A program made the translations under genes and the position numbers. The notes under the pieces are model-generated. The model searched no databases. It was not told the DNA's origin and saw nothing but the letters and a program-made list of their open reading frames with translations. Below, piece after piece: positions 1 to 49,420 of a DNA stretch of 64,000 bases. Origin of the DNA: Brachyhypopomus gauderio. Lineage: Eukaryota; Chordata; Actinopteri; Gymnotiformes; Hypopomidae. Each line of letters starts with the position of its first letter. Position 1 is the first letter of the stretch. Location: positions 2,125,264 to 2,189,263 of the forward strand of contig NW_027506877.1 of assembly GCF_052324685.1 (NCBI RefSeq), read 5' to 3'.

Positions 1-1049
1 ACACACACATGCACACTCAGGCTCTGACCCACAGGTACCCATTTTCTTTTGCGCAGACTACACATGTTTATATGTAATACTGGGAGACTTACTGCCTTCA
101 CATCCTGTCAGTCTACAGGAAACATCCTCATTTGACTTTATTATATTAACTTATCTGTGTTCATACTGGAAATGTAACATGCTTACCTCTTACCTCTTTT
201 GAACACAAAATCAAATTACTAATCTTGCAGATTAAAACTGTCTGCAACCTGTTTTACATCATTTTTGAGGTTGGTTCTGGCTGTGTCTTCAGTCAGCTGA
301 GCTGTTTAGTGCCTTTGTGACCTTATCAGAAGTGCAGTTTTTCTTTTATGGATCTAAAAATACCATCTTGTAATATCGAGTTTAGTGAAACAGTAGACAG
401 CATTTCCAGCTGATGTGAGAGGGTTAGTATACGGTCACAGCCCAACTTCTCAGTACCTTCTGAACTCATCGAAGAGAGATGCAGAGATGTTCAGCGTAGC
501 GGATACAGGGTGTCAAATCCTGCAGTGTCATTTCCTGGGTAAAGAGCTCAACACATTCAGATAGCAAAGCTGGTTCTATTCAACCGAGGAGGTGTTTCTC
601 ACACAGGCAGGTGTGTGCGCATGTGAGTACATGCATATATATGTGCGTGTACATGTGCGTATGGGCGTTTGCATGTTTGTATATGCATGAGTGATAGAGG
701 GAGAGAAAGAAAGACAGAGAGGGATAGAAGAAAGGACGGGGGGGGGGGGGTGGACGAGTGTACAGAAGCTGCTGAAAACGGTGTCTGGAGTCTAATAAAA
801 TGGCAGGTCTGATGTTCTCCACAGACCGCCACATATACAATAAACCCTCTGAACCTCGTCAGTCTGTTTTTGTTCCACATTATGTTGTTTTCATCTAGTT
901 GTGCTCTCATGGTTGGCCGTACATTGAGTCTGTGTCCCTGTATGTGTGCATGTATGTATGTTGGACATGAGTAGATAGATAGAAAGACAGAGAGAGAGTA
1001 TGGACATTAACATGTAATCTATCTGTGGAATAGGAGTGCTTGGTGTGTT

Positions 1050-1055
<6 letters not shown>

Positions 1056-1133
<78 letters not shown>
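1056..1133. repeat. (TG)n microsatellite
   Basis: An uninterrupted TG dinucleotide run of about 78 bp is read directly from the sequence. Confidence 0.97.
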
Positions 1134-1134
<1 letters not shown>

Positions 1135-2476
1135 ATATACATGTGTACACTGTGTGTACATTGTGCATGTTCTGTGAATCCCTGTATATGTTCTATGAAT
1201 CCCTCAGGGCGGTACTGGTTAAATCTTGTCAGCGGCGGATAAAAGAACACCCTGAACCAGAGGCTGAGTTGCGTAACACACACTTACATTCAATCAACCA
1301 GAACAGCCTTTACCAACCATTAGCTTCCGTTCATAGAAGCCTCCTTATTCCACTCAATCACTTTAGAACTGTATGTCTGTGTTCTTTACCTTTCCTAATA
1401 AAGGACCAATAAGAAGCCATTACTCCGGAAAATTAAATAGATTTGTTTTTATCATGTGGCTGGCTATGAGTTCGGATGCACCTGATCTCATGCAGAAGCA
1501 GAAAGGCCAGAGGGGGCCATGGCGTCCTGCAAGCCCCCGGAGACCTTTAGCCGACAGGGCCTTAAGGGTTGCAGGTTTGGTGGAGGAGCCTGAGGCTGCT
1601 CTGGTTCAGCCCACGTCTCAGGGTTCCGGCCGCTGTCCTCCGTCTGGGTTTGGTCCTCTGATGGAGGGTCAACGCTCCACCCCCGACTCCAAAAACACGT
1701 ACCCGCCTCGGGAGAAAAGGCCAAACCCACTCACAGAAAACTAAAACAACACGGACCCCTTCGCAAGCTCCACTTACCTGCTCGTGAGCTGAATCAGGTG
1801 TGCTGGGCAGCGGTTCTGCTGTGCTGGGCTGTGGCCTGTCTGGGCTGAGTGTCTACACCCGGGCTACAGGCGCGCTCCACTGCGTTTTTTCCTTGAAACT
1901 TCTCCAGTCTTCCGTTCTCATCCATGACCTGCTTTGCCCTGTACGGGAGAGGTGTGTCTGTTTAGTGTTGTGTGTTTTAGTGTCGTGCGTCCATATACAC
2001 ATATGTGCTTTTGGTCCACGACATGGTGTCCTGTTGTTTCTGAGAACGTCACGGTGTCTGTGTTGCTTTGGTGCTAGGTTAAAAACAGCAGGGATACTCT
2101 GACATGCTTTATGAGATGTCTTGACCAGATCTTCTACAATTACCTCTCTCTCTCTCGTACTCTCTCGCTCACAGGCACAATCCCTCTCTCACTATTTAAA
2201 CCGCTCTCACGTGTTGAGCTTTACATGGCTTTAATGTCCTTGGGAGATACACACCACACCTTATCTCAGAAAACACAACAGGAAAAAGACCCTAAATTGC
2301 AATTCCTGTGGGAGGAGAGAGAGAAGAGTGGGCAAAAAAACAACGGTGAGAGCATTAGAACAGACCTCTCTCCTGCCTCTTCATCTTACTCCTCATTCAC
2401 ACTGGCAAAAGAAAGACTCTGTTCTGCTGTGCATGAATAAATATTTGCAGCCCTGCGTGGTTGAACTGTGTGGTTG

Positions 2477-2616
<140 letters not shown>

Positions 2617-2745
2617 CCAAATGCACTTCTGGCTGGTGTTGTCACAGAAGTGCTTTGCTGTCAGTCGGGGGACTAAAGTTATAGACTGCAACTGCCCCAC
2701 TTGTGGAGGAGGGGAGAGACACTCACTAGACTCTATAGAGGTTTA

Positions 2746-2863
<118 letters not shown>

Positions 2864-3509
2864 ATGTGCGTGTGTATGTACACTGTCCCAAACAAAAAGA
2901 TCCCCACAATGTACCCCTTGTCATGAGGATGCCAAACAGCAGTTACACTCTGGGGTCAGGCCTTGCAAAATCCCATCAGTGCCTTAAGCAACAACCACCC
3001 CATCACAGATCTGCTGACTGCAGCAATGCAGGAGAGTGACGCTGAATGACACATGGCTGTCCCTGAGGCATGGAGCTTGACCTGCTCCTGTCGTCACCAC
3101 CAAGCTCCTGAAGCCCCGCCCACTTCCACTGCTGCTTCCAGACACGCCCAGTCAGCCCAGAAATAGTCAAAATTAAAGAATTTTTAAAGCTGTAATCAAG
3201 TATAAATAAAGAATTTTATAATCAGTTGTTGCATTTGATAAAATTTAAATGATCTTGAGCTGAGGGTGGCTTTCAGTTTACAGAGATGTTAAAGAATTTT
3301 CATTTAAATGGCAAAGATGGCAAATCATGTTCATTTGAATACTGATCATTCTCGTTGGGAAGCATGTGTACTTCTGGGTTTTGTGCAGTGAATATTTTTG
3401 TTTTGATAGTAGGGAACTTGTGTTTCTGTAATATGATTGGCAGAATGTGCTCAAGTGACAGAACTGCTTAAGTGATAAAAGACAGTTGAATCAGCTGTGG
3501 GTCTGTGCT

Positions 3510-3512
<3 letters not shown>

Positions 3513-3604
<92 letters not shown>

Positions 3605-3699
3605 TTCCATGTATGTGTGTCAGTATGGGTGTTTTCAATTCAATTGTTCAACGCTTCATAAACATCTTCTGATATATACTTTACTATTTGTGTCTGTGT

Positions 3700-3757
<58 letters not shown>
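3513..3757. repeat. Two (GT)n microsatellites separated by about 90 bp
   Basis: The first GT run spans 3513-3598 and the second spans about 3690-3757, with unrelated sequence between them. Confidence 0.95.
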
Positions 3758-3762
<5 letters not shown>

Positions 3763-4077
3763 CATATGCGTGTACATGTTTGTGGGTAGGGCTAGTGTGT
3801 ACAAAGTGCTTAAACTATTTTTCTGCACCATTGACTTAATCCCAGGACATGTCAAATTAGCCAGCAACCAGACGCACATATACACATAGACACACAAATG
3901 CACACACATACAAATACATACAGTAATTATCTCTTCATTTTATACCATGAAATACAAGTACTATATATGTGTATATATAGACCCACACATTAAACTTCTA
4001 CCATGCTGTCAATCAGACCACATTTACTCACACGGCTAAAGGTAACTTGTCTTTTTATTAAAATCTTCATATTTTCA

Positions 4078-4080
<3 letters not shown>

Positions 4081-4115
<35 letters not shown>
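4081..4115. repeat. (CT)n microsatellite
   Basis: A pure CT run of about 35 bp. Confidence 0.95.
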
Positions 4116-4120
<5 letters not shown>

Positions 4121-4248
4121 TTTTCTGCTCCTTCTCTTTGGAAGTCCCCATACCTCTAGGGTGTGGCTATACTGTATACACACTGACAACCTTGAGGGTG
4201 AAAGGGAGTGTCACTGACAGAATTAGCAGAGTAAGGGTATACCTCTCA

Positions 4249-4391
<143 letters not shown>

Positions 4392-4477
4392 CATTACAGC
4401 ATGATAAAGCCAAGGTAATTAATTGAGACTCTGAACTTAACAGACCAATTAAACATGCAGACACTTACACACACTTA

Positions 4478-5015
4478 GGGCGTACTCACACTAGGCACGG
4501 TTTGCTGGATCCGTGCTGGGGCCCGGTTATCCCCCCTCCCCACTCCCCCTCTGGCCTGCACTCACACTGGCTTCATCAAGCCGGCCCGAGCACGCTTACG
4601 TCATCACAACGTGACTTTATTTGGAAAAAAAGCGCGCTCGCACAACACTATGGAGTTCACGATTCTCTTTTTATTGTATTTTTGGAGTCGTTTTGGGAGT
4701 GCAGAAACACGGTGCAAGCACAGATTTATCGATAATTTAACACAACGATTGTCTGCTAATCGCTTTGCCGCTATGACTGTTTAACGTGAGCGTCACATCA
4801 CTGACGTCATGTTTGAGTTCCAGCGAAATGAACCAATCACACGAGGCACCAAGCGGGCCCGGGCACGGATAGCGCTCACACTAGAAGCGAACCGTGCCCG
4901 AGTCCAAGCGAATCGTGCCCTGGCCCACCTCTTCAAGCGGGCCCGAGCACGGTTAACTGATCCGGGCACGGTTGGAGCGCTCACACTAGCCACAGAGCCT
5001 AGTGTGAGTACGCCC
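4478..5015. mobile_element. PIF/Harbinger-type MITE
   Basis: The element is bounded by perfect 19-bp terminal inverted repeats, GGGCGTACTCACACTAGGC at the left and its complement at the right. It is flanked by the trinucleotide TTA at 4475-4477 and 5016-5018, the target duplication expected for PIF/Harbinger elements. The 538-bp interior has no coding frame I recognise and carries several inverted or direct copies of a GCCCGAGCACGG-like motif, so it is most likely non-autonomous. The clean ends suggest a fairly recent insertion. Confidence 0.88.
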
Positions 5016-5250
5016 TTACACTCACATAACCATATACACAACCAGACAAAAGAGAGAAATTCACATTTATGTGGTGAACATGAGAGACAAAGACTAATTG
5101 AAATGGCTCCACTGTTTAAACTGATGAGTATAGAGAAACACATGAGGTAAGAGGATACATTAAAAGACAGAGAGATTGTTATCCTACATTTCATTATTGC
5201 TTAAGAGAAGACGTCCATCCAAGTGCCACAGCAGAAGCAGCAAGACTGTA

Positions 5251-5256
<6 letters not shown>

Positions 5257-5332
<76 letters not shown>
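5257..5332. repeat. (TG)n microsatellite
   Basis: A pure TG run of about 76 bp. Confidence 0.97.
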
Positions 5333-5336
<4 letters not shown>

Positions 5337-5458
5337 GCAGAAGGTGAAAAATTACATTTGTGAAAATTACATATGAAAAACATGTTTATAGTGCATACTA
5401 TATTTGAGCCTCAGACAATTTCTTTGTGTCATGTGTGGGTCACATATATGTACAGGCA

Positions 5459-5460
<2 letters not shown>

Positions 5461-5555
<95 letters not shown>
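5461..5555. repeat. (GT)n microsatellite with one GA interruption
   Basis: GT repeats of about 95 bp with a single GAGT interruption near 5494. Confidence 0.97.
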
Positions 5556-5556
<1 letters not shown>

Positions 5557-8500
5557 CAGAGAGGGCTGATGTCTCTTCTGTCTCCTCTTGTGATTATTTG
5601 TGAGGGGCTTGGTAAGTTGCTGTGTTCTGGGTAGCACAGTTTGTTCTGGGGGACTAAATATAGCATCACACAAGAGGTGGTGGGGAGCCATGTTTACAAA
5701 TGGAGCAGAGGGCCAGGAGATTCAGGCAGACGAGGAGAGAACATTGGTCAATTATCTCTTCATCATCAACATTTTATTCACCTTACTTGAGGCCTGATTG
5801 ATTTGTTTTTCTTGCTTCAAAGATGATAGGCTTTCTAAAATGTCCCCTTAGTACGGTCAAATTATTTTGTTTGTTCATCAGTCAATAATTTCTGTCCTAT
5901 TGTAACATCAGTGTAAACAGTTTGTGTGTGGCCAGAAAACTACTAACAGATTCTGCAACCAAATTATTGCAAAACCAGTCCATGCCCAACTGCTGAGGGC
6001 TGGTGAGCCAGGTCACCCATCATGATGTTGGATCATGCTCTGTTTGTGGGCCTGGAAGCCTAAGTTCAGTAAGCCTAAGCTCAGAGGAGCTTATATAGAC
6101 AAACCAGCTATCTAGGGGGTGAGGGTAGGGACCCATGGCTTCATGGAGAAAGGATGACTGCAAGCAGAGCGTGGTTTGGGCAGGTTCCTCAGAATACGCT
6201 GTGAATGTGTTCACATCACATGGTAATATGAACAAAAATAAAATAACGACCAATTTGAGGGAGAGTCAGCTTTAAACTTCATTGCAGTGTTTGAGGTGAT
6301 CACTGTGCCATTCTGTGATATGAACGCAGTTGTGATTCTGTGATATGAACGTAATAGCTAATCCCAATGACTAGAAATCAGATAAAGTTTTTAATGCATC
6401 GTTTTTTTCTGACAGAGAGGTTAAAAATTGACAAACAGCCTTTTGCTTTAGGAGGGATTACAGAGCCAGAATGTCAGAAGAACATTTCCCTACCTCGCAG
6501 AATATTCCCAGTCCCAGATTAGCCGACATCTCTCCCTGCTGCACGGCTCGGTTTCGTGCGTTCTGAAGTCGCTCTCACCGACAGCAGCTTGCTAATTAGG
6601 GTGAAAATGGTGGGATGGAGGGGTGGAGAGGTAGAGTCAGCCCTGCTGTTTGTTTTATAAGTGATGTCTAATGATCGTTAATTCAGGGTGGCTGCTGACG
6701 CAGGCACATAAACACCCAGCATGCCCTCTGATTCGCCCCACCCTCAAGTTCACCCGCTCCTTCAAAAACACACAGGCACATACACGACAGAACCCACACC
6801 CGCGCTTACAAGGTTACTGCACGCCATCTTGGCTATTTGCCTTTATCTTTATTGACACTTAAACCCTCTTTAACTTAAGAAAGCCATGAGAAAATGTCAT
6901 AGGGCAGTTACACACAGTCCCACAGACATAAAAAAAATATTTCATTGGACGCTTCGTATTGATTTCCATATACAGCAGTGCTCAGATTACAGCTGACTGA
7001 TCGTGTTACGTGAGGGCAGTGTGGCTCCTGAGGTTGACACAAAATCTTTACTTTTCCTGATGGCGGATGCTCTACAGGCCAGATGCTCATCTAGGAGTCC
7101 ACAAAGCACTATTGCTCTTAGTAGATTCTTCACTAGTGGTGTTATAGATAGAGGCAGGCTGATCGGATTTTAGAGTTTAACTGCATGTATTACGTGCTAT
7201 ACAAACCTGTTTAATTGACCTTCTAAAAAAAGAAAGTCACAATTGAGTGGTCTAATATTTGTTTAGAATGTTCTCTTTATCTGAAACCATAAATCTCTAA
7301 AATATCTTTGTCCCATCTTTTTTCAGAATGTTGAGCTCTTGGCCTACTTTGGAATTCTGGGAAATGAAGTCCAGGAGCTCTCCTGCACACTGCCAGTGCA
7401 ACTGCGAGAACAGAAACTGGGAGAAGGCAACGTGGCGTGTACATGCACAACATCCATAACGCCACTCAAGCACTTTCTAAAGAGACTGATAAAACAAAAA
7501 ATCATCTCTGCTTTTAGTTTGACTTATAGCAGCAACGAATAGGAGCAAGTGCCAAAAGACTTTTGCGACAAAAGACAAAAGCGCAAGAATTCTCCCTAGA
7601 CAAGCACTGTAGCCAATCAGAGGACAGTATGAAGAACGCCTGCCAGCCTGGAGCCAATGAGGTCCAAGATTCAGACGCTTGAACAGTTTGGAGTCAGATG
7701 TTCACAAACAAACAAACAAAAAAATAATGGCTGAAGATCACAGTTCTCAGATATATTATACATTGTTTGCAAAAAGTGCCTGTTGGTTTTGATTGTAGCC
7801 ATATGTAAAAAAAAAAAAAACCTTGATTTTGACTGAAGAGCTGGCTTAAGTTTTCAAAGAAAGGCTTTTATTATGTGTTGGAACTGATGTAAATAGAACG
7901 GAAGTGAAAGATCTGAATGGTGATCATAATGATGAAGACGTAATAATGATCTTAAAATAGCCTGTGATGTGATGTTTAGTTACTTAGCAAAGCCGCTTAA
8001 CTGTAAGCCTCAGTACCCCAGCCTGCTCCACTACTGACTGGCCTTCTGCTTGTTCTGTACTTATTCCTGTTTCCAGTTCTTTCGCCTCTCAAACCATGCC
8101 TTTGCTTTCTTCCTCTCTTTCATCATTTTCTTTTCCTCAATTTCATATTTCTCTGTCTTTTCTAGTGATTTATGTGCTCCAGCTATGCAGTAGCACTTCA
8201 GTGCCTGTCTCAACCCCGCCTCGTCCTCTGCTCATGCTAGCGTAAAAGGTAGCGTACAACAGAACGGGCTATTTTTACTTGTACTCCTAAGGTGGGAGGT
8301 TTCTCTGTGATGGTACCTGCTGTTACTTACCTCATATGGCACGCAAACATGCTAGCTGTCCCAGTACACAGTGGACCGTACCAGTTATGTTTCAGATAGA
8401 AATATGAAGGACGCTGCAAATATATAGAGTGCCGTGGATGTTGCCTTCTGAAACCGGTTTAGTTTTTCTGATAAAGATCTAAGTAAGGATTGGTGTAGGG

Positions 8501-11043
8501 GTAACTGACCCCACCTTTGCATAAAAGGGCAAATGTAACTCCATGTTGTTTCAATACACTCAAAGGCAAAGTGTGACAAAATTAGGCCCCAAGTGCAAAA
8601 CATTCTCTTGATTCTCTGTTTGCGGTAACTTTTTACTCCTCTGCCATTATTATCGACATTGCTTTTTAAAAAAATGGCTAGAGTGTGTGTTCTTGCATAC
8701 ACGTGTGGGCGTGTGTGTGCGTGTATAGGACTGCAAGTACCTCTCCCTCTACTCTGCACTGCCCGAGCACTGGCCTATCCCATGTTTGCCTGGAAACAGT
8801 GCATAACAAATAACCTTTATTGCATCCAGATTGGGCTCCATGCGTCAGACCCACTGCTTTGTACTCCAGAGGTAGAGCAGGCAACCCCAGTGGCCATGGG
8901 AGGCTTCAGAGCCATTACGCAGGCACGTACCCCAGCCGCAGCGCACATGCCCTCCAGAACATACCTCATGCCTTATATCGCTACAGTGCACGTCCAGGGC
9001 CGTCACACCAAAAAACACTCGAGGCTGACAGTGGATTCTTCTTGACGGCTCAAGAGTTTCAGGAGGACGTGAAATTCAGAAAGGTACAACTAAAAACCCG
9101 CACGGCACAAGCCGCATCGGCCAAAGTGGCGTGCTGTCAGGAGTCATGCGGTATGCCATTGTCCAATACGTCGTCCAGCCATTGAGATATTTATGAGGGA
9201 CGTTTTGCAGAACCAAACTGTGAATGTAATTTTACCACTTGAGTCTTGAGAGAATCCGGATATGAGGCAGCGAACACCATCTCCCTCAAGAGTGTGTTAA
9301 TAAGGGGATACAGAATATAACAGATAATGCTTTTGATAATGATGATGTAAAAATATGTATTTTTTGAGGGGGCGGGATCATTCCCACAGTTTTTGCTGCT
9401 GTTCTTACTATGATATTTTATGTTAGGGGAGTAGAACTTACCAACAGGTTTCTTCTTATGCGCTAAACTTTTTTTTCTGTAATTCATGTCATGTTGCTTC
9501 AAAAAGAAATGGCAGTGTGATGATAATGTTTTTCATGTTCTGTTCAAGAAATAAAAAAAAAATTTATTGGAAACTTTTAGAGCGGTGATTTACAGTCGGT
9601 CACAGACAGCCATTTTGAAATCAGAGCCATACAAGGAGCTGAAGGCTAGCACTGTGGCCCAGAACCAGGCAGGGTCAGACAGGCAAACACACCAAAAGAT
9701 CTTAAGGGACTAATTAATGAACATATAAAACATTTCACCATTATCATAATCAGTTCATGAAAATAAAGTTAGGGCAAGTTGAATCTGATTAGTCTCTAAA
9801 GACAAATGTGCTTTGTTTAAAAAGAGACATAAACATTGATTTCCAGCATGCATTGTAAAATGATCTATCTGAAGCACAAATCAGTATTGATTTCATGTTA
9901 TACAACATCTGTTTACATTGCAGTGACACTTTTAGCAGTAGACTTTAGTCAAGTAAAAGGTTCAGCATTAAGTTTTATCGATTGATTGAAGTAACAGTAC
10001 AAATGGATTTTCAAGCAAAATGACACAAAATATGATCCCAAGAAATACAACCAAGTCTGATGTACAAGAGCCTAACAGACTAATTGATGACTAATTAAAA
10101 CAGGCAAATTGATTATTACAGGTCTATGTGGTAGATGAGAATCCTTTAATCTATTATCACAGTTTCACTTAGTGTGAGAGATGTACTCTTCCCTCTTTCT
10201 CTCTCTCTTTCTCTCTCCCTCTCTCTGTATGGAAGTGATGACATGTCCTTATACAGCCACCAAAACACGCAAAACATTCATTATGCTGTGTGTGTGTGTG
10301 TGGTGGCAGATGGTGTGCTAACCACAGAGATAAATCTGTATTTTGTCTATGGGTGCAACAGTGTCTCAGGTGAGCAGCATACTGAATGACGTGACTCACA
10401 CCTGGTCAGGCCTATTATTTCTCTCTGAGAGAGAAAGTGCATTCCAGGCAGAATCTGGAAAAAAATTGCAAATATTAGATAAAAGCAGTTTTATACAGCC
10501 ACAAAACGGCACCCTGTAACATTGTACCAAGTGTGTAGCAGCTGTAAGAATCGAACATGTTATAGGCCTACACCCAGTGTTCTTAATCCAAATACCTGCA
10601 GGGACTGAAACGTGGATCTGACGGTATTCTGTCTCTGACCTGTTTTTACATACAGGTGTCTCTGGCTCCTGTTCCACTTTCTTGTCTCTAAGGTGCCATA
10701 TGGAGCCCGGGGCTTCTGGGTAGACGTGTGTAGATGCTATTTGATGTTAGACACTATAGTCTACATCACACAAGCTCCAGGTAGGAACTATTCTTGCAAG
10801 CTGATGTAGGAACTGTTCCTTATGCAGAGTGTAATTTAACCTCGAAGAGGAGAACAAAACCAATCAAGATGAAAGGAACTGAGGGGAACCTTATTTAAGA
10901 TGTCTGAATGTTAGCCTAATGTTTACAGAGCTTTTTTTTTTTTTTACCAAGTCTTTCTGTTTTTTGTTTTTCATTACACAGATTGTCCCTGTGCAGAAGG
11001 GCAGCACAGTTAGACAACAGATATACAAGGTCTTAGATGGTTC

Positions 11044-11044
<1 letters not shown>

Positions 11045-11107
<63 letters not shown>
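11045..11107. repeat. (TG)n microsatellite
   Basis: A pure TG run of about 63 bp. Confidence 0.97.
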
Positions 11108-11108
<1 letters not shown>

Positions 11109-11667
11109 GATATAGGAAATTCTTTTTTTAAAAGAGCATACTTTAAGGTTTTAAAAGAGCATACTTTAATAGCTCATTTTTTCACTCATTAGTCTTCTTC
11201 ATTTTACCAGGTATATAACTATCATACGAAATTCCAAGCAAATTTGACCCTTGGACACAACTGATTACACAAGAGTTTCAACTTAAAAACAGTAATGCTG
11301 CTTAACTTCCCTCTAGAGAGCTGAGAGACACTCTGGACAGATTCAAGACAACTCATTTTTTATTTCAGGTCTTAACAAAATTTGGTGTATGCACTGCTCA
11401 TGTGTGTTTATGTGTATAATATTAGTATTTCATCAAGGAGTAAACAAAAATACCAACGCAGGTGTCATGATTAAATGTTGCATATATATGCTTTCCACAA
11501 TTATTTATTTCAAAAACAAAACCTGCAAGGCACAGCAGAACAGTTGCCCTTCTCAAAAAGCAGCCATCATTTTCGGCCACACAACAGCACAATCTTAGTA
11601 CAGGATGTACTGCAGGAAATCTTCCTGTTTTATTACTTCCCTTTTGGCTCAGTTAGGGAGGAAGGTC

Positions 11668-11867
<200 letters not shown>

Positions 11868-14795
11868 GAGAGACAGTGTGTGAGAACAGGACAAGTCTAC
11901 ATTTAGAACAAATCTAATTCATGTCTTCGTTTCATAACTACCTTGGCTGCTTGATCTTCATACGTCTTTGACGACACAAATCGTGTATTTTTCTACCACA
12001 ATCTGTATAATGTTAAGTTCCATCAGTGTTAATTATAGGTTGTCAAGGTGTTACCATGACCCAGCTATGGTGCTGCACATGCTGGTCGATGAGGGAACGT
12101 ATGATGAACATATTTTAATACCCTGCCACTATACTTTCATTACCTCATTGCTTCTTTGTATTTATCTAAACAGGGAGTCTTATTTGTTTTCCTCTCCTTT
12201 CCATGCTCTCCTCTCCGTATCTTTTATCATGGGAGATGTGCCTTTTACGTCATGTGGAGCTGTAAAGCATATTTAGAGGAGTGAGTACGGAGAAAGAGTT
12301 AACAGCTTGCATCACTGTCGTCCTGGAAGGAATAGTGGGTTTTTTGTGATGATTTGAGATCAGTTTTGCAGTTTTTATTGCTATGTTTCATATAAGGATT
12401 TATTGGGGTAAGCTGAGTCTAGACCAGCTTCAAAGCTACTACTTAGAAAGCGAGAGTGGGAATGGCGGTGTGCTGGGAGGGAAGGCATGGTCTGCCACTT
12501 TGGGGCCTCTAGATTTTATTTTTCCTGAAAAGCTGCCTGAGAACGCGTGGACACATGGTACAGAATTCCCCCACAGCCTGTGTGTGTGTATGTATGTGTG
12601 AGGTGAGAGAGAGAGAGAGAGAGAGACAGAGAGAGCAAGATGATGAGAAAGAGAGGGAGGGATAGAGGGAGGGGTGAGAAAACGACAGCATGGACGTGTT
12701 CTTACACAAACCGAAGAAAAACATGCAGCGAGTTCCAGTGTACCGTTGCATATTCCCAACAAAATGATACACTTCAGACTTTTCCTTAATGTCAGTTCAA
12801 ATAGCCATTTGATTCTGCCCTCCAGCTTTTCAGTGAAAGGACAAAAACTTCTTAAGAAAATGGAATGTTCCACTTTCCAGGCATTTATGGGGGGGAGGGG
12901 CAGTAATCCAATGTACAATGTATGCAGTCATGATTGACAGGAACACCCCCCCCCCCCCACACACACACACACACACACACTCCCCCTCCCCCTCCACACA
13001 GATTTTCCTTTAGCGTCGCCCTCATGCTGAGGAAATGTGGCGGTTAAGGATGAGTTGTAGAACAGGCGGTTCCTGGTGAGGTTGTGCTCATGTGAATAAA
13101 GGTGTGGGGTCATACTTTTGAAATGCCCCATGTACTCTAATTTAGCTCAGGTATGTAATAGAAACCGTTTATTTTTCTGTCATTATTCATCGAAAATAGA
13201 ATGCTAAAATGCTTCCCCGTAGGCTGCGGCATGATGTTTGATCAACCAAATAACAAACATGATTTTGCTGGAGAGCTTAATGCCCTTGTAAAATAATTGA
13301 GCTATTATGAAGTCATTTCTGAGCAAAAATGTTTTGCTGAACATGTAATTTATATGTTATCAATTCTTAATGATCTATCAGAAATGGCAGTTATTAACAA
13401 ACAACTGATGTTGAGAAAGCCTTAAGATATTCAGAGTATTAATATAAAGAAGAGTGCATATAAGAGTGCACAGAAGTATCCACCTTCATTAATTTAAGAT
13501 TGTGAAAATACAGTATGTAGAGGGTTTGGGGGTTACCTTTTATACAACAGTCCTGTACTGGTGAAAAACAAAATGAACCCAAAGAACTCTGAGAGCAAGT
13601 TTTCACATGGCACGCATACGCCATCTGGTGGCTATCTAACACATTGCTTCAACCTATCCAGTTATTGGAAAGACGTCCACTTCCAGAGACGTCTAGTTCT
13701 GGTGTTGCAAAATTGTAAAGAAAAGAGAAAACTGGAGCAGTGAAATGTAACTTTCTATTGTTTTGTGTTTGAAAGAAATGGAACATCTGCATCAGCAAAA
13801 AATAACCCAATTTCCTTTTTCTTGTAGTTACTAAAAAACAGCTTTTATTATGAGACAGGAAAATACATTTCTTCACCCTTTTCTTGTTTTATAATATCCA
13901 GTTAAATAAATCAGTACGCTTAACCCTATTGATTTCATATTATATAAAATAAAGACTAAACAAAACAGATACTTTCAAATTGAACACTTTTCCTACCTGA
14001 AAGGTTATATTCATAGTGCAAGACAGAAGAAGAAAAAGAATCTTGGTGTTCAGTGTTTTATTAAACACTGACTCAGGTACAATTAGTGGACTTCACATTT
14101 ACATTGTCGAGAGAAAAATGTCATTGTGTCAGCTGTCCTACTTCACCAATTTAACTTGGATCACTAATCAGACAATAAAGCTGTTGGACAGAAATTACCA
14201 GAACTAGTAATACTAGAACATATGAAATTACTAGAACTACCAATTTGTAGTAGTATTAAAACTACTGTTACTAGTAATAACCTTAGAACTACTATTAGAT
14301 CTAGCTCTATATTCAATATCTGTAAGAACTAGAATTCTTTGAACATCTAATATAGACTAGAATTCATTGAATTTCATATGCTATACACATGAACTTGTCT
14401 TGGGAGTTTACCTTCATGGAACAGTTCACTGGAATTCTCACACTGACCATATTTATACACCAACACAAGCAGTTTAAGAAATGACTGCCTGCCTATTGCA
14501 TAACTGAACTAATGAATCTGGACAAGAATATTTAAATAAAGTTCTGTCTAAAGCATGAAGCATGGCTCAATGAGCATTGTTTACAGAGGTTTACAGAATT
14601 TACAGGAGAAAGCTTAAAAGGTTTACAATTCATGACATTTTGTCTGCCACTATCTCCCATATGATGAGTAGCTTCGGTATTACTTGATTGGCTGGACAAC
14701 GTCTTCTCGAGCTGCAGGAGATACTGAATATCTTGCAGTTTGCACTTATTTTGACCTGGAGAGCCTCTTCAAACTTGCCCAGGTCCTTTGGTTGA
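11868..14795. other. No gene recognised; short GA, poly-C/CA tracts and likely 3' flank of the minus-strand gene
   Basis: No exon is recognised. A GA tract lies near 12603-12629 and a poly-C run followed by CA repeats at 12946-12980. Between about 14196 and 14375 the DNA is AT-rich and unusually dense in CTAG and ACTAGAACT-like words. The segment nearest 14800 is probably the 3' untranslated region of the large minus-strand gene; a TTTATT at 14057-14062 gives AATAAA on the minus strand and is a possible but unproven polyadenylation signal. Confidence 0.5.
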
Positions 14796-14800
14796 GCATG

Positions 14801-17800
14801 CTAGTCACTATGAAAAGTGAAGGCGGCACTCCCTCCAACGTCTGAAGATCGAATTGCTTTGAAACTGATGTAGTTCAGTTGTCTTGGAGAAGAACCGAGA
14901 TAATTGGCATCATCATCATCATCATTGGGATTTCTGTTAACGGACGTATTTGTGCCAGTGAAATTCAAGTTAACAAAGCTCATGTCCAATTCAACGTTCG
15001 ATGCTGTTTGACCAAGCATCTCGCTACTCTGATTTAACTTCAAATTCTTTTGATATGCCATGTTCTCCTTTGAGAGGTTTGTCATTTCATTCGTTGAATT
15101 TATTTTAGACTTACTTAAGCGGACTATAGGAGATCTGTATGTAGATGTCTGTCCATCCTTTGAGCCTGACTTCAACCTGTTGTCCTGATGATAGACTCCA
15201 ATATATTTACCACCCACGACACTGCTAGTAGGCCTTGAACTTTGTGTAGCATTGTCATCACTTCCATATTGTTGAATTGGGTCAGTAAATTCATTATTCT
15301 GAATTTGAGTTCTTGTTGGTGACTCAATAGGACCTTTATTTTTCAGTGATGTAAACTGCACTTCCTTTGGGACAGAGTTTTCTATTTGTAAGTGTCCAGT
15401 CCCATTCTGAGGCACGACAGACTCAAGACTGGCTAAATCAAACCCTGAAGAGGAAATGCCACGTTGATTTTCATTGACCATTTGTGGCTTGTAACTGTGA
15501 GAAGAGGCCAGATTTTGTGTTGTGGGTTCATCATCAGAGTAGATATTGCTACCAGGTAAGTGGGCACCATCAACAGTGAGCAGGTTTTCAGAAGTGGAAC
15601 TGAAGGAGGGAGAAGTTTGAAGCGGTTCACTCTGGTATGCTGCGTCATCACTTGTAACAAAGTTGTATTCTGCTGAAATTTGATGATTTTGAATAAACTC
15701 AGATTGGTTATAATTATGCGAATGATGTAGAGTCTGGTCAGCATCTCTGTTTGGTGTGTAATTTGCTTTGTTCCACATCAAAACAGACTCATTAAAATCA
15801 TGTTTATTCTGGATTTCTATTCTATCCATCATGACATCTGAGGCACCAATAAGGTCTTGTTCAAATGGTTTCTCAGAATCAGTGGCAACGGTTTTGGAAA
15901 TCTGGCTGGGGCTTATAAGTAGTAGTTCTCCAATAATACTATGATTATGTTCACTGATGCTTATAACTGGATTGCTTGTTGAAGGGATTGTGATTATTTC
16001 AGGTGAAATAGACTTATTTGCTACCCAGCCATTAGATATTTCTGACTGCCTTTGGTCAGGTTGCAGGCCACCTAAATCTATGTTCAACTTAGTGTCTGGT
16101 TTTTTATATTCCCAGACTGGTAGATCATGTGATATTTGTGAAGGAGTTTGGTGCAACGTTATATTGTTTTGATCAAAGTCTTTAGGATTATTCATGCTGG
16201 AATTGTCAGGGATACTTACATTGTTTTGAGGGTGGCTACTGTGATCATGTATCCATTTAACAAGGGTATCTTCTACTAATGATATGTTTGTTGGCCATAT
16301 TTCACTATTAACAGATGGTGTTTTTCCAGTTGTATGCCACTCCCTGGGCTCTTCAAACTTCTTGAGAAAAACAACATTGGAAGTTTGATAGTGATGGCCG
16401 TCAGATGTTGGGGAGCTCTGAGAGGAAAGATCTGTACTCACTTGAAGTGGGACTTCCCTTGGTGGCTGACCTTGTGTAGATCCTGCTTCTCCATTGCTGT
16501 TTTGTGTCTCATTAGGCATTAGGTTCAGAGGGAGTAGTTTTAAGTCCCAGACAGCATGGGCATTTTTTGAATTTGTATAATCTGGTTGTTTTTGTCTTCC
16601 GTAAGTGCTGTGATTTCTTGATATACTTGGGCTTGCAGAGGGAAACAAATGATGGCTCACGTTTGCTTCAACTTTTGGTGGTCTTTGACTATGCATCTCA
16701 GTACTTTGATTTAACTTCAAATAATTTTCATATCTTATGTTACCCATTGAGAGGTTCATTGTTTCATTAACTGAATTTTTTATTTTAAACTTACTTAAGC
16801 GGACTATAGGAGATCTGTATGTAGATGTCTGTCCATTCTTTGAACCTGATTTCAAGCTGTTGTCCTGATGATAGACTCCAATATGTTTACCAACCAAAGC
16901 ACTGCTAGTAGGCCTTGAACTTTGTGTAGCATTGTCACGACCTCCATGTTGTTGGATTGGGTCAGTCAATTCATTGTTCTGTACTTGAGTTCTTGTTGGT
17001 GTCTCAATATGACCTTTATTTTTCAGTGATGTAAACTGCACTTCCTTTGGGACAGAGTTTTCTATTTGTAAGTGTCCAGTCCCATTCTGAGGCACGACAG
17101 ACTCAAGACTGGCTAAATCAAACCCTGAAGAGGAAATGCCACGTTGATTGTCATTGACCATTTGTGGCTTGTAACTGTGAGAAGAGGCCAGATTGTGTGT
17201 TGTGGGTTCATCATCAGAGTCGATATTGCTACCAGGTAAGTGGGCACCATCAACAGTGAGCAGGTTTTCAGAAGTGGAACTGAAGGAGGGAGAAGTTTGA
17301 ACCGGTTCACTCTGGTATGCTGCGTCATCACTTGTAACAGAGTTGTATTCTGCTGAAATTTTATGATTTTGAATAAACTCGGATTGGTTGTAATTATGAG
17401 AATGATACAGAGTCTGGTCAGCATCTCTGTTTGGTGTGGAATTTGTTTTGTTCCACATCAAAACAGACTCATTAAAATCATGTTTATTCTGGACTTCTAT
17501 TCTATCAATCATGACATCTGAGGCAGTTATAAGGTCTTGTTCAAATGGTTTCTCAGAATTAGTGGCAACGGTTTTGAAAATCTGGCTGGGGTTTAAAATA
17601 AAAACTTGTCCAGTGATACTTTGATCAGGTTCATTGATGCTTATAACTGGATTACTTGACTCCCCTTTGTAATGTTGCAATCCACTGAAATCCATGTTCA
17701 ACTTGGTGTTTGATTTTCTATATTCCAAGACTGTTAGATCAGGTGATGTTTGTGAAGGTTTTTGATGGAAAGTTGTATTGTTTTGATTATTTTGAAGGTG

Positions 17801-19889
17801 GCCAGTATCAGCCGTCTGTTTAACAGAGGTGTCTTCTTCCAAAGAGATGATAGCTGGCCCAAGATCTCCATTATCGGATAATGGTTCTCCAGTTGGTTGC
17901 CATTCCCCAGAAACTAAATTTGAAATGTGATAATGATGGTGATCAGATGTCATGGAGCTTTGAGAAGTAAAATCTGGCTCCATCTGGAGATGTGAGACTT
18001 TGCTTGGTGGACGACCATGTTTAGATTCTGCCTCTCCTTTGATATTTCGCATCTCATTAGGCATTATGCTCATAGGGAGTGGTTTGAACTCCCTGACTGC
18101 ATGGGTATTTTTTAAGTTTCCATAATCTGGTTGATGCTGGCTTCCGTAAATGCTACGATTTCTTGATGCCATTGGGCTTGCAGCAAAAAATCCATGATGG
18201 TTGGAGAAAGAATGGGCTCTGCTTTGGACACCGTCCCATGTTCTTCTAGATGCAGGATGGGGTTTTATGGCTATCCACTGTACAGTTGTTTGGGTGCTAG
18301 GTATATTCTCTGGGGGTTTCCTTAAATTATGTTGTTCTAAGTAACTTGAAAGACTTGGATGACTGCCAAAGATTTTTGCCTCACCAGAATTGCTGTTTGA
18401 AGTACCCAGATAGTTCCATGGTGGTTTAATTCCTGGCGAGATAGACATAGTCTTGCCCATTGTGTCCATTATAGGTTTATTCTGGCTTGACTTCATTCTT
18501 CCGTTTGCTGAAGAGTTCCAGGAGGACAAATCTGTAGTGAACGGTCTGTGCCAATTTGTCCGTGGCATGGCTTTACTTTTAACCTGTTCACTAACTTCCT
18601 TTGCGTGCATATTGGCAGACTCATAGCGATTGTGAATCCTGGGTGGATGGTTACTCATAACCTTCAAAAAAAGTGCAGACTTGGAACTCATTTGGTGGCC
18701 TTTTTGTAGTGCTATATTCATTTTAGTTGACGTTTGCCCTCCCTGAGTAGGCCAAGACGAGACTGATTGGTTTTTTGAGGCTTTCGAGATGAAATCTGCA
18801 TAAAATTTCCAAGGTTCTTGAACAAATGATGTTTGCGCTCTTTGAGCAGGAAGCTGAGGCAAGGGCTTCAAATGGATCGTCTGCTTTAACTCGTACGAGG
18901 GAACATCCTGAGAATGTTTGAAACCTTGCCTGACGTACCTTCTGATGGATGTCTTCTCATTTATTTGTATAACACTTTTAGATAAATCTGTTCTCTTTCT
19001 ACCATGTTGAGGACTATCAGCATGGTTAGAATGCAGTGGAACACTACCAGTAACATGCCCTTTGTACTGGTCTGGGTTTAAGTTACTTGTATCCATACCA
19101 TGACTTGGTCTGAATGCATAGGGTTTATAATTAGCATGTACAAAGTTATTTTGATTACTGCTTGCCAAGTTTGTCATACCACTTGAGTCCGAGTGAGTGT
19201 TTCCAGGACTTAATTCACCTCTATCTGGAAGAATATTAAAGCCATTTGAAGTAATATCACCACTGAAGGATTTTTCGTTCAAAACAGGAACAGTGTTGCC
19301 ATTTGTAGGCAAAGGTTTTGCAACAGTGCTCTCAGAGTAGTTAATCTCAGAGAGAACAGGCCCAAGATGGTTTTGGTTTGGATGAACGCTGTTTGGATTA
19401 TCGAAGGTGTTTAGATGGCCCGTTTGGTTATTCTCTTCACTGATGCCTTTTAAGCCTCTGACTGAGACAGAGAGATAAATTTATCATCATTTATATATAA
19501 ATGAAACAGCAGCATCATAAGGTCACTAGATCTTGCAAATACACATGCTTAGGCATAGCTTTCCTGTCTTTAGGTGTTTTGAGCCAAAACGGATCATTTA
19601 CACAGGTTCTTATTCTTTGTAAACATCATGAAATCTTCATAAAAAATATACATTAATAACTCTCTACACAAGATTGTTTTTTTTTAGAGCAGATGCAAAA
19701 AAGCTTACCTACAGATGGTGGTTCAGCAAAATATTTTGCTACAAGAAGAGCCAAATAAACCAAAGCCAGCCTGTGACATAATGAAGTCAAAACACCAAAG
19801 CCCATTATTAACTCATATCTAAAGACATATGTCTTTCATTTTTAACACAGGAAAACAAAAACTTGCCTATAACAACGTCCAAAAGACAT
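14801..19889 (-). CDS. Large secreted cysteine-free repetitive protein, family not recognised
   Basis: Read on the minus strand the gene has three coding exons: 19889-19867, 19770-19709 and 19461-14801, joining to 1582 codons including the TAG stop at 14801-14803. Exon 1 ends at a GC donor (AG|GCAAGT), exon 2 at GTAAGC, and the acceptors are TCACAG and TCTCAG. The N-terminus is a signal peptide split over exons 1-2: a short basic start followed by the core LALVYLALLVA. The mature chain appears free of cysteine and rich in Ser, Asn, Gln, Thr and Pro, with many N-X-S/T sites. Residues about 461-968 and 969-1520 are two copies of one long unit; the motif ASLESVVPQNGTGHLQIEN occurs in both. Near the C-terminus there is a run of five Asp. 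I cannot assign it to a known family. A mucin-like or extracellular-matrix role is only a guess. Confidence 0.8.
15000..18180 (-). repeat. Long direct duplication inside the secreted-protein gene
   Basis: Two coding units lie at roughly 18180-16645 and 16640-14990. Between about 15120-15900 and 16800-17580 the two copies align with a constant offset of exactly 1680 bp and only scattered substitutions. Some whole 60-base stretches are identical, such as 15361-15420 and 17041-17100. Outside this core the copies are clearly more diverged and contain length differences. Confidence 0.9.
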
Positions 19890-21086: not shown

Positions 21087-21714
21087 CTACATCATGTAGC
21101 AAGACATGAGTGCCAGATCCCGCATTTCCGCATGAGTAATACAACCTAAAGGAAACACGCACAGTGAGCATTTCCGATTTAATTTTAGATTATTCCATTA
21201 TTTTAACAATTGGTTGGGCTACAAACATGCAACATGGATTGTGTTAAATCTTATAGGAAAACCAGATCATTCATAGGAAACACTCACTTGTCCGACTCCG
21301 TCCTGTAATTTTAGTGCAGAGTCGCTTCATGGACTTCCACAGCCGTCCTGTCCTGGACCTCGGTAGTCCATCGCCTTCACCCCGGCCAGATGTCTCGCTC
21401 TTCTTCTCTTCGTCTTCCTCGTCGTCACAAGATTTTTCCTCCAGGCCTCCTACTGACAAAATCCGCTCCAGAATCCCTTCGTTTACCGGGAAATTATCCC
21501 TCAGCCTGTCCTCTGTCAGAGGAGTGGTGTGTCGACAAAACGCACAGACCACCCGGGCTTCTGTTTCGGGGTCCTCCGTGCGGTGCGCGGCGGACTGCGC
21601 CTGCGTCAGGAGACACTTCTCGCAAAAGCTGTGTTGACACCTCAGCTGCCGGGGACACCGCCGTCCCGCGTTGTAAAGTTGGTAACATATCCCACACTCC
21701 AGCTCTGACAACAT
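21087..21714 (-). CDS. RING-finger protein, RNF227-like
   Basis: The minus-strand start at 21714 begins MLSELECGICY, with no better upstream ATG in frame. A C3HC4 RING is visible: C7, C10, C26, H28, C31, C34, C57 and C60. RING proteins of this type are E2-binding ubiquitin ligases. An acidic stretch (DDEEDEEKK) and a basic one (RLWKSMKRL) follow; no membrane segment is seen. The frame could run to a TGA at 21271, but a GTGAGT donor lies just before it (exon end 21288). A TTTCCTTTAG acceptor is placed so that 21145-21087 adds a 19-residue tail ending LALMSCYMM and a TAG stop, giving 161 residues with a 142-bp intron. Similarity to RNF227 is from memory of the family's short length, RING spacing and the RLW-type motif; the human gene is in the same chromosome band as DVL2, which agrees. 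Other short RING proteins (RNF224, RNF225) cannot be excluded. Confidence 0.72.
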
Positions 21715-24767: not shown

Positions 24768-25367
24768 ATGTCCTTCAGGACCACAACTGTCCTGGACACC
24801 GTGTCCACCAGTGGGGACACCCCTGAGGTGGAATGCCCTGTGTGTTACCAGGAATACGACCAGGACCTCAGGCTCCCACGCATGCTGGAATGCCTCCATG
24901 TCTTCTGCACAGAATGCCTTCGTAACATCCAGCTGTCCCCGTTCCACTCACCCGACCCGGACAGCCCTCCCTCTATCTCCTGCCCCTTGTGCCGCCATTC
25001 CACCCCGCTAGAGGGTGGCGATGCACACTCCCTCCCCTGTAACTCTCGGATCCTGGCCAAGCTCCCACCTCTAACTTTTCAGCTTCCCGTGTCGGTATCC
25101 ACTCGGCTAGCTACTGTGACCCAGAGGGTGATCCTGTCTCTGGAGTCCCGGGATGCCCGGTTCATCATCTTACCCACTGTCAGTCTTCGGGTGGAGCAGA
25201 TGGGGGAGAACTCCAGCTCACCTGAACCCATAGAGGGGAGGGTTGAAGTCATGAGGAGACACAGAAAGAGTCTGATGTGTGTACAGATGTTGGTTGTCAT
25301 ATTCTGGATGTTTTTTGTTTTGGCCTGTGTGTTAGGTGTGGTTTTTGGACCAAATTTCTTTCACTAA
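24768..25367 (+). CDS. Membrane-anchored RING-finger protein, RNF183/RNF223-like
   Basis: One uninterrupted exon encodes 199 residues. A C3HC4 RING occupies roughly residues 23-78: C23, C26, C42, H44, C47, C50, then a CPLC pair. A hydrophobic segment near residues 170-192 followed by only a few residues makes it a tail-anchored membrane protein. Single-exon short RING proteins with a C-terminal anchor are typical of the RNF183/RNF186/RNF223/RNF225 group, E3 ubiquitin ligases of internal membranes. I cannot choose among them, so no symbol is given. An acceptor at 24692 implies an upstream noncoding exon. The gene is divergent from the RNF227-like gene about 3 kb away, which may reflect an old duplication of related RING genes. 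The ATG at 24768 is the first in the exon. Confidence 0.85.
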   Translation: MSFRTTTVLDTVSTSGDTPEVECPVCYQEYDQDLRLPRMLECLHVFCTECLRNIQLSPFHSPDPDSPPSISCPLCRHSTPLEGGDAHSLPCNSRILAKLPPLTFQLPVSVSTRLATVTQRVILSLESRDARFIILPTVSLRVEQMGENSSSPEPIEGRVEVMRRHRKSLMCVQMLVVIFWMFFVLACVLGVVFGPNFFH

Positions 25368-39300: not shown

Positions 39301-42300
39301 AGGTGGCTGGGGAGAGGGAAACCTGGGCCTCTTTGCTTAGGCTACTACCCCTGTGACCCGAACCCGGATAAGCGGATGACGATGGATGGAGTGGTCGAAT
39401 ACTGGGGAGATGGTACCATCTCTTTTAATGTGATAAAAAGCTAATTATTTTGAATCATTTCGACCATATGTCCAGTCGCGACGCGTTAAGCATAAGCTCA
39501 GGGCTCTCAAGTTTTGGATTCATGTCAGAGTGTGAGAGTTGTTGACGGGGGTGGCGAACGTTAATTATTGGGGGTGGCGAACGTAAGTTGTTGAGCGGGG
39601 TGGGGGTTTGTATATCGCGATCGATCGCCAGTGGAGGGCGACATAGATATGGATCGGAGGTAAATAAACTAGATATTTTTTTCTCGCCGTGTGAAATCGG
39701 AAGTGTGGCGTGTGAGCGTGTGAAGACAGTCAAATGCGTGTGTCACACGCTCAATGCGTGAGACTTGAGAGCCCTGATAAGCTAGCTTTATGGGTGGTGC
39801 AGCAGATCGTTACTTCCAGCCGTGACAACTTTTGCTTGACAGCATTTGCAGTAAGTGACTGGTCCACGTTCAGCCCTATGTACTTCCTGACAACAGACGC
39901 AGCTCCTTTCTTTGGTTCAGAACGTCCCTAGTTTTCAGCAAGCTAGATTTGCGCTCTGTTGCACGTGTGCTTAGCGGCACAGCGATAAAAAGCGTCCCCT
40001 GAAAAACAATTAACAACTGAGCTGCGTGTCGGACATGTTAAGGCTATTTAAACCGGTGTGGCCGGTATATGAAAAATTCATATCATAACAAAAATAAACA
40101 CTGGTTTTCGGTGTGAACACGTATACCGCCCAGCACTAGCCACATCATATCTCTCCGTATCTCTCTCCCTCTGTCCCTCCAGGTTTTGATGAGTTCAACC
40201 TGTCCCTTCATTCTGACATGGCGTCCGTGGCAAAGGCTATGGCCTCTCCTGAGTCGGGCCTGGAAGTCAGAGACAGGATGTGGCTCAAGATCACCATCCC
40301 TAACGCCTTCTTAGGTAAGACGTGTGTTGTGAGGCTTTCTGTAAGAAGCGGAAGACAACGACTGACCACGTGGTCGTATAATCTGTGTGCTGTTTGGAAA
40401 AAAAAATCATCGATTTCTCGTTTCCGCCAACGGACACGTGCCTACACCTTTGAGCATTTGATTTTCTTTTTATTGTGAAGCAAACAACAAATAGGACAAA
40501 ATAACAAAATTTCATTGTGTTTGTTTAACTGTTAACCCTCCTAAAATCAGTACATTGTTGAGCCACCTTGTGGCAATTATTTATAGCTGCAACTCACTTT
40601 GTATAAGTCTCTATCTATGAGCTTGCTACATTTTGCCACTGGGATTTTTGCCCATTCCTCAAGGCAGAACTGCTCCAGGTCCTTAACATGAGAAGGCTTT
40701 TGCGGGTGAACAGCAATCTTCACGTCTGACCACAGATTCTCAAATGGGTTTAAGTTCTACGCTTCGACTAGGCCATTCCAATACATTTACACGTTTCCCC
40801 TTAAACCACTCGAGTGTTACTTTATTTATTGGGCCATTGTGATGTTGGAACGTGAACCTCTGTCCCAGTCTCACATCACTGACGGACGGAAATGGGTTTT
40901 GTTCAAGAATATCCCTGTATTTAGCACCACCAATCTTCCCATCGATTCGGACCAGTTTCCTACTGTTTTCCTACAGTTTCCAGTTCCCTGTTGTTGAAAA
41001 ACATCCCCACAGTATGACACTGCCACCACCATGTTTCACTGTGGACCTGTTGTTCTTGGAGTGATGAAGCGTTTTCCTTGGTGGCCAAAAAGTTTAATTT
41101 TGGTCTTATCTGACCAGAGCACCTTCCTCTATATATTTGGGGAGTCTCCCACATACCTTTTGGCAAACTCAAGACGAACATTTCTATTTTTGTCTGAGTA
41201 AATGCTTTTTTTCTGGCCTTTCGTCCATAAAGCCCAGCTCTGTGGAGTGTATGACTTATTGAGGTTGTACAGACAGATACTCCAGTATCTGTTTGGGAAC
41301 TCTGCAGCTCCTTTAGGGTTACCTTGGGTCTCTGCTGCCTCTCTGATTAATGCCCTCTTGTCCTGGTCTGAGAATGTTTGTGGGTGGCCCTCTCTTGGCA
41401 GGTTTGTTGTATGTTCTTTCCATTTGTTGATAAAGGATTTGATAGTGGGATCATAGGAGATTTGGATAGTTTGTTCCTGACTTGTGTGGAGATCTCCTTC
41501 ATGGTCTTCACAGTGTTGTGTGGTTAGTGATGCCTCTTGCTTAATGGTGTTGCATATATACTTGACAGATCATGTGGCACTTAAATTGCACATGGGTGGT
41601 CTTCATTTCACTAAGCATTTTAGGGGGTTCATTGCAAAGGGAATTCATGTGCACATTCCAATTTTCAGTTTTATATATATATATTTCATTTATATAATTT
41701 CAGTCCAGCTTTTCAACCAAACAAATGTAGACATACAGCATATTTACTAGTCTGTACATTGGTTGGCTATGTTTATACCCAAATTAATCTAAAGCTCAGT
41801 GATTATTGTGTGTGCGTGTGTGTTGCAAACAGGGTCAGACGTGGTTGAGTGGCTCTACCACCACATCGAGGGCTTTCAGGATCGCCGGGAGGCTCGCAAG
41901 TACGCCAGTAACCTGCTGAAAGCCGGCTTCATCAGACACACCGTCAATAAGATCACTTTCTCTGAACAGTGCTACTACATCTTTGGAGACTTCAGCGACT
42001 GTGAGAACTGTGAGTGCTACCAGCTTGCAAATAACTGCGATTTAACGTCTCTTGGAAAAATTTCATCATGTAGCGGTGACTTTGAAGAGAGGAAATGCGT
42101 AATTACCATAACCATTTCGTATTCGTAGAGATTGCTTCCTCTCAGTTCTTGTGCCTCCCTCATTCTCTCTCCGTTATCAGACATGGCCAACCTGTCCCTC
42201 AACGACAACGACGGCTCCAGCGGTGCGTCGGATCAGGACACGCTGGCCCCCCTGCCATTACCCGGGGCCACGCCTTGGCCTCTGCTCCACTCCTTCCCGT

Positions 42301-48832: not shown

Positions 48833-49420
48833 CTGCTCAAAAAAATAAAGGGAACACTCAAATAACACATCCTAGATCTGAATGAATGAAATATTCTCAT
48901 TGAATACTTTGTTCTGTACAAAGTTGAATGTGCTGACAACAAAATCACACAAAAATCATCAATGGAAATCAAATTTATTAACCAATGGAGGCCTGGATTT
49001 GGAGCCACACACAAAATAAAAGTGGAAAAACACACTACAAGCTGATCCAACTTTGATGTAATGTCCTTAAAACAAGTCAAAATGAGGCTCAGTATTGTGT
49101 GTGGGCTCTACGTGCCTGTATGACCTCCCTACAACGCCTGGGCATGCTCCTGATGAGGTGGCAGATGGTCTCCTGAGGGATCTCCTCCCAGACCTGGACT
49201 AAAGCATCCGCCAACTCCTGGACAATCTGTGGTGCATCGTGACGTTGGTGGATGGAGCGAGACATGATGTCCCAGATGTGCTCAATCGGATTCAGGTCTG
49301 GGGAACAGGCGGGCCAGTCCATAGCTTCAATGCCTTCATCTTGCAGGAACTGCTGACACACTCCAGCCAACAGCAGGTTGAAGATCTCCACCTTCACAAT
49401 GGGGAAACATGCACACACAA
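48833..49420 (-). mobile_element. Second Tc1/mariner-like copy, truncated
   Basis: The element starts CTGCTCAAAAAAATAAAGGG, a known fish Tc1-like end, only 6 bp after the neighbouring transposon. On the minus strand an open stretch (about 49418-49089) encodes the end of a transposase: a CSPDLNPIEHIWD block with the catalytic Glu and a SMPRRCREVIQARRAHTQY ending. The N-terminal half and the far inverted repeat were not found. Confidence 0.8.

Follow-up and report, generated by a model that had tools for sequence, protein, structure and literature searches.

A large, single-copy and apparently unannotated orphan gene of Brachyhypopomus gauderio, probably coding for an exported disulfide-free structural protein

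Introduction

In the REST genes of the mammalian semen coagulum, to which the semenogelins, Svs, Svp5 and rabbit SVP200 belong, exon 1 encodes the signal peptide and exon 2, which has a phase-1 acceptor, evolves fast (PMC3209443; PMC7556508). The members are said to be dissimilar among themselves (PMC3209443), and for SVP200 a high content of Gln, Lys and Val is reported, together with repeat units of 24 amino acids (aa) (PMC7556508). In the genes of the secretory calcium-binding phosphoproteins (SCPPs) and the enamel matrix the signal peptide is placed in exon 2, a large variable exon is present, and the conserved S-x-E motif lies in a small exon after the signal-peptide exon (PMC4373244). 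Here we compare with these systems a gene on the minus strand of a 64,000-nucleotide stretch of the gymnotiform fish Brachyhypopomus gauderio (assembly GCF_052324685.1, contig NW_027506877.1, positions 2,125,264 to 2,189,263), in the following called the window.

The gene is a large, single-copy and apparently unannotated orphan. We consider it probable that it evolves fast and that its product is an exported, disulfide-free structural protein. The evidence consists of a very long open frame, the upkeep of this frame since an internal duplication, the avoidance of Cys, the presence of a signal-peptide exon, the occurrence in one copy and the lack of detectable relatives; that the gene is expressed and spliced, and that its product is secreted, disordered and structural in role, is inferred. 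The signal peptide would be encoded by a short exon, and a single very long exon would encode a chain of ~1,555 residues, which would leave the cell as a flexible, hydrophilic polymer without disulfides and serve in bulk to build an extracellular coat, gel, coagulum or matrix. The gene would have grown by duplication of a ~1.6 kb internal segment whose core was later homogenised, and the sequence would be free to vary provided that composition, length and frame stay the same.

Most orphan genes are short, and their reality is often questioned; the present one is very long and exists in a single copy. Its internal duplication provides evidence for a kept frame inside one genome, without any known homologue. 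If expressed, the gene would add an unlisted large protein to a fish tissue and would illustrate well how large disordered secreted proteins originate and escape detection by homology.

The open reading frame and the gene model

Exon 3 lies within an open run of 1,559 codons from stop to stop, the runner-up in the window having 321 codons, and among 300 simulated sequences (first-order Markov, same length and dinucleotide content) the longest open run was 237 codons. The other five frames of the exon 3 DNA contain 78, 78, 90, 100 and 160 stops. Chance would not produce an open run of nearly this length, which bears out the initial annotation in taking it as evidence of coding, and a protein-coding gene is supported by the sequence.

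Joining 19889-19867, 19770-19709 and 19461-14801 (minus strand) results in an open frame of 1,581 aa with a TAG stop, in agreement with the ~1581 residues and the uninterrupted 4.66-kb terminal exon proposed before. However, the proposal of three exons with a split signal peptide is just one of two gene models, although the joined frame itself stands. Intron 1 is optional: the frame starting with the ATG at 19805 continues directly into the core of the signal peptide and gives MGFGVLTSLCHRLALVYLALLVAKYFAEPPSV and a total of 1,585 aa, so that this intron, which has a GC donor, is dispensable. Both ATGs have an A at −3, while the +4 position is a G at 19805 and a T at 19889. The intron before exon 3 is of phase 1, and intron 1 of the earlier model would be of phase 2.

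Internal duplication and maintenance of the frame

Two long units are found in exon 3; they were aligned by MAFFT, since a self-BLASTP of the product returned just the whole self-match. The description of the protein as repetitive, with two units of ~510-550 residues, is correct as to the two units, but the repeats go back to one internal duplication and no tandem array was found in 14801-19461 at a score of 50. Of the 1,545 aligned bases (515 codons), 226 are not the same in the two units, and neither copy has acquired a stop. Equal random change in one copy introduced 8.0 stops on average, and none of 2,000 simulations ended stop-free. Furthermore, the eight gaps in the homologous part of the alignment (3, 3, 3, 3, 3, 21, 48 and 66 bases) are all multiples of three. 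For the two units the ratio of non-synonymous to synonymous divergence (dN/dS) amounts to 0.79 (bootstrap 95% 0.58-1.08; 6.9% of the bootstraps ≥1). Because stops are absent and the gaps are in frame, yet dN/dS is this high, the reading frame has been maintained since the duplication, and the exact sequence little.

A gene that died recently, or a long frame that yields no product, would also be compatible with a dN/dS not clearly below 1 and with the lack of any relative or listed product. Given a frame length far beyond chance and the lack of any stop since the duplication, against 8 expected, this explanation is highly improbable.

Divergence is uneven along the units. The core (263 codons) shows 90% protein identity and a synonymous divergence (dS) of 0.065, the part preceding it (212 codons) 54% and 0.385, and the tail after it (40 codons) 55% and 0.28. 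These steps in dS are suggestive of gene conversion, or of a second exchange that followed the original duplication. The two cores, 16793-17581 and 15113-15901, are the likely conversion tract.

In addition, residues 31-440 (about 18140-19370) have a weak colinear similarity to the repeat core. Aligned with residues 1215-1522 they outscore all of 1,000 shuffles and all but one of 1,000 local-window shuffles, but with the matching part of unit 1 just 900 and 919 of 1,000. Against the two diverged parts of the units the score was not above chance, and when whole units were aligned under different gap costs, scores as good came from 4 of 200 shuffles for unit 2 and 27 of 200 for unit 1. A third relic copy at residues 31-440 is therefore suggestive at most.

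Composition and predicted export of the product

The sole Cys of the 1,581-aa model, residue 6, belongs to the signal peptide. Starting with residue 29 (1,554 codons including the stop) there is no Cys codon, and none in exon 3; 23.9 would be expected for the whole coding sequence from its position-specific codon composition, and the shifted frames hold 25 and 61. The mature chain is thus free of cysteine, as had been noticed initially. Because Cys codons are so strongly avoided, an extracellular chain without disulfides would fit well.

The product is hydrophilic, with a grand average of hydropathy (GRAVY) of −0.87, and its commonest polar residues are Ser, Asn, Thr, Pro and Gln; Ser and Thr make up 20.7% of the chain and Ser, Thr and Pro 27.4%. 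It had also been called glycosylation-rich, which the counts do not support: the 35 N-X-S/T sites compare with 27.3 ± 4.5 in composition shuffles (122 of 2,000 equal or higher), which is no clear enrichment. Unit 1 contains 12 of these sites and unit 2 contains 17, with 9 common to both.

The exon just upstream of exon 3 likely encodes a signal peptide, as predicted from its sequence; the peptide is the strongest hydrophobic stretch. To this extent the product's earlier designation as a secreted protein is retained, whereas the splitting of the peptide across exons belongs to only one of the two models. As a measure of rarity, both strands of the 64 kb were scanned for stop-free exons that begin with ATG, measure 45-129 nt, reach a hydropathy of 2.6 or more over 11 residues and end in phase 1; among 53 GGTRAG sites one exon qualified, namely that at 19709.

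A start at a Met of exon 3 or in another upstream exon would instead give a non-secreted, disordered cytoplasmic or nuclear protein. The splice joins are predicted, and exon 3 does contain internal Met codons. Nevertheless such a protein is unlikely, as the scan brought up no second exon like that of the signal peptide, which has the right place and phase, and complete avoidance of Cys would fit the extracellular space better.

Search for relatives

With exon 3 as query, nothing above the cut-off was found in Pfam (best weak hit E 0.084) or NCBIfam (best weak hit E 0.063), and there was no match in the PDB. A search of a set of 5.8 billion proteins (E ≤ 1e-3; 3,229 candidates) with words from the first 500 residues and target lengths of about 853-2716, and a second one with a shortened form of the product (E ≤ 1; 5,427 candidates; target lengths of about 585-1860), yielded no relative, both being blind to shorter fragments and to very divergent relatives. 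Within these collections the gene remains as undescribed and as free of recognised domains as it had looked at first, and the profile and protein searches led to no well-characterised family. A survey of the literature on Cys-free disordered secreted proteins of teleosts and on the locus turned up no paper on this gene; what came up for the locus apparently concerns other genes.

As a control, the neighbouring single-exon RING gene was searched in the same way and found 188 proteins, with many named fish among the 120 listed and the window's own copy included. Since the gene's own product is missing from its matches, unlike that of the RING control, an annotation of the giant product within the length ranges covered is improbable.

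When exon 3 was searched against its own genome (797 Mb, 840 contigs), the single match at E ≤ 1e-3 was exon 3 itself (4 candidates scored). An origin from a transposable element or endogenous virus was set aside on this copy number. A Tc1-type fragment does exist elsewhere in the window (47.6-48.6 kb), but with a single match in the whole genome and no transposase or viral family above the Pfam cut-off in exon 3, the gene is exceedingly unlikely to be part of such an element.

As to the range of the protein, we propose only tentatively a lineage-restricted, perhaps gymnotiform-only, extracellular matrix or coat protein of ~1,580 residues. It would have no relatives in other fishes, would form an unrecognised family, and would be older than its internal duplication (dS about 0.39 for the older parts), with partial homogenisation later on.

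Weight of the evidence

Several points weigh against a fast-evolving gene for an exported structural protein. By the dN/dS of 0.79, constraint on the amino-acid sequence is weak or absent. In total, 13 gaps occur when the units are aligned as DNA, of which five at the ragged ends, where homology fades, were excluded; these measure 6, 4, 5 and 16 bases in the first 40 columns and 15 bases at the far end, and three of the five (4, 5 and 16) are not multiples of three. The signal peptide was called from hydropathy and the exon scan and not by a trained predictor, and the criteria of the scan were fixed after the exon was known, so that it is no blind test. As to disorder, the charge-hydropathy point of the product is on the disordered side but near the boundary, and a mean predicted local distance difference test (pLDDT) score of 29, obtained by AlphaFold2 with a two-row alignment of unit 2 and the C-terminus only, says little. 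Finally, no relative was found although the protein set holds many fish proteins, and the gene's own product was absent from the matches as well.

Genomic surroundings

The features of the gene and its neighbours are compiled in Table 1.

Table 1 Positions of the gene's features and of neighbouring genes in the window
Feature	Position	Strand	Remarks
Exon 1 of earlier model	19867..19889	minus	23 nt coding; ATG at 19889; GC donor AG|GCAAGT; optional; joins openly to exon 2
Exon 2	19709..19770	minus	Predicted signal peptide, hydrophobic core LALVYLALLVA; phase-1 GT donor at end
Alternative single first coding exon	19709..19805	minus	ATG at 19805; whole predicted signal peptide; model without intron 1
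Exon 3	14801..19461	minus	4.66-kb terminal coding exon; TAG end; start at 19455 also in frame
Candidate poly(A) signal	14057..14062	minus	Closest canonical AATAAA 3' of the stop; variant hexamers sit nearer
Internal unit 1	16667..18214	minus	Residues about 445-960
Internal unit 2	14981..16660	minus	Residues about 963-1522
Core of unit 1	16793..17581	minus	Residues 656-918; 90% protein identity to core of unit 2
Core of unit 2	15113..15901	minus	Residues 1216-1478
RING gene, single exon	21274-21714	minus	Domain scan
RING gene, single exon	24768-25364	plus	Domain scan; relatives annotated si:ch73-335l21.2 in several fishes (among 120 listed)
Dishevelled gene	between 28.4 and 43.1 kb	plus	DIX, PDZ, DEP and Dsh_C domains
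Tc1/mariner-like transposase	47560-48607	plus	Two overlapping frames; DDE_3 in the second, the first by eye
BTB-BACK-kelch gene	52.6-54.7 kb; by eye possibly as far as 56.1 kb	minus	Domain scan
Acyl-CoA dehydrogenase gene	from about 63 kb	plus	Domain scan

The dishevelled gene beside an acyl-CoA dehydrogenase gene, candidates for dvl2 and acadvl, fits the BCL6B-SLC16A13-ACADVL-DVL2 neighbourhood, which one study describes as conserved between fish and mammals (PMC9650189). In a tree of the RING gene, made of 18 proteins chosen from the 120 listed, the protein of the window joins that of Electrophorus electricus with a support of 85/93, which is below the mark for a firm branch; this placement suggests a gymnotiform. 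Downstream of the gene, in the remaining 14.8 kb, 10 chosen open reading frames (ORFs), including one at 14.5-14.8 kb, contained no domain above the cut-off (one weak hit, E 0.039). Runs of (GT)n and (CA)n are frequent in positions 1-14000. Neither Rfam at gathering scores nor ARAGORN reported anything in the window.

Shorter Tc1-like pieces, recognised by eye only, are located at 40960-41569, 49089-49421 and 51186-51377. Minisatellites occur in and beside the kelch-like gene at 53159-53476 (55 bp x 5.8) and 55246-55490 (42 bp x 5.8).

Comparison with known secreted proteins

SCPP introns are of phase 0 as a rule, and SCPP genes cluster with SPARCL1 or with other SCPP genes. A divergent SCPP member, that is a matrix protein of mineralised tissue comparable to enamelin with its large exon, would share with our gene a secreted-type Cys-free chain, a large variable exon and a signal peptide on a small upstream exon. 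Membership fails, however, on the intron phase, since the giant exon is preceded by a phase-1 intron, and on the S-x-E motif, which occurs 13 times over the whole chain against 10.5 ± 3.0 expected (494 of 2,000 shuffles equal or higher) and is not clearly in excess. Neither gene model has a small exon between the signal-peptide exon and the giant exon. No SPARCL1 or SCPP gene was recognised in the 27 of 346 window ORFs that were scanned, the recognised neighbours being RING, dishevelled, kelch and acyl-CoA dehydrogenase genes, and Pfam gave no hit. An SCPP is therefore very unlikely. To enamelin, ameloblastin and amelotin the gene is similar in its secreted-type chain, the predicted signal peptide on a small exon and the large variable exon, but it differs in the phase-1 intron, the lack of S-x-E excess, the neighbours and the missing Pfam match.

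With the secreted mucins the protein has in common a Ser and Thr content of 20.7% of the chain and the presence of N-glycosylation sequons; in contrast to them it has no tandem array rich in proline, threonine and serine (PTS) at a score of 50, no Cys in the mature chain and no mucin-type domain in Pfam. An egg coat protein of the ZP type was rejected, as there is no Cys after residue 6 and Pfam reported no ZP domain.

A more specific version of the favoured structural protein would be a coagulum or coat protein of reproductive or glandular origin, acting in the manner of mammalian semenogelin or rabbit SVP200 and thus secreted, repeat-bearing and cross-linked to a gel. Such proteins are expected to evolve fast; a phase-1 intron after the signal peptide, however, is common among secreted proteins in general, and no sequence relation was found in Pfam or in the two protein searches. 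The product is furthermore not high in Gln (6.4%) and Lys (5.4%), whereas SVP200 is reported to be rich in Gln, Lys and Val (PMC7556508). On the other hand the layout matches, with a signal-peptide exon, a main exon with phase-1 acceptor and fast evolution of this exon with growth of repeats (PMC3209443; PMC7556508). Altogether a coagulum protein in this sense is doubtful.

REST genes end in an entirely non-coding third exon and are located in the WFDC/semen-coagulum locus, and their products serve as transglutaminase substrates in the seminal secretion. Because the REST members are dissimilar among themselves, a missing sequence relation to them weighs little. No WFDC domain was recognised near the gene in the 27 ORFs scanned within the window. 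As neither a sequence relation nor evidence from the locus is available, we do not file the gene under REST, which it resembles in layout. Like the semenogelins, Svs, Svp5 and rabbit SVP200, it would combine a small signal-peptide exon with a large main exon having a phase-1 acceptor, fast evolution and growth by repeats; unlike them, the fish gene has one large duplication, where SVP200, for example, has numerous short units of 24 aa.

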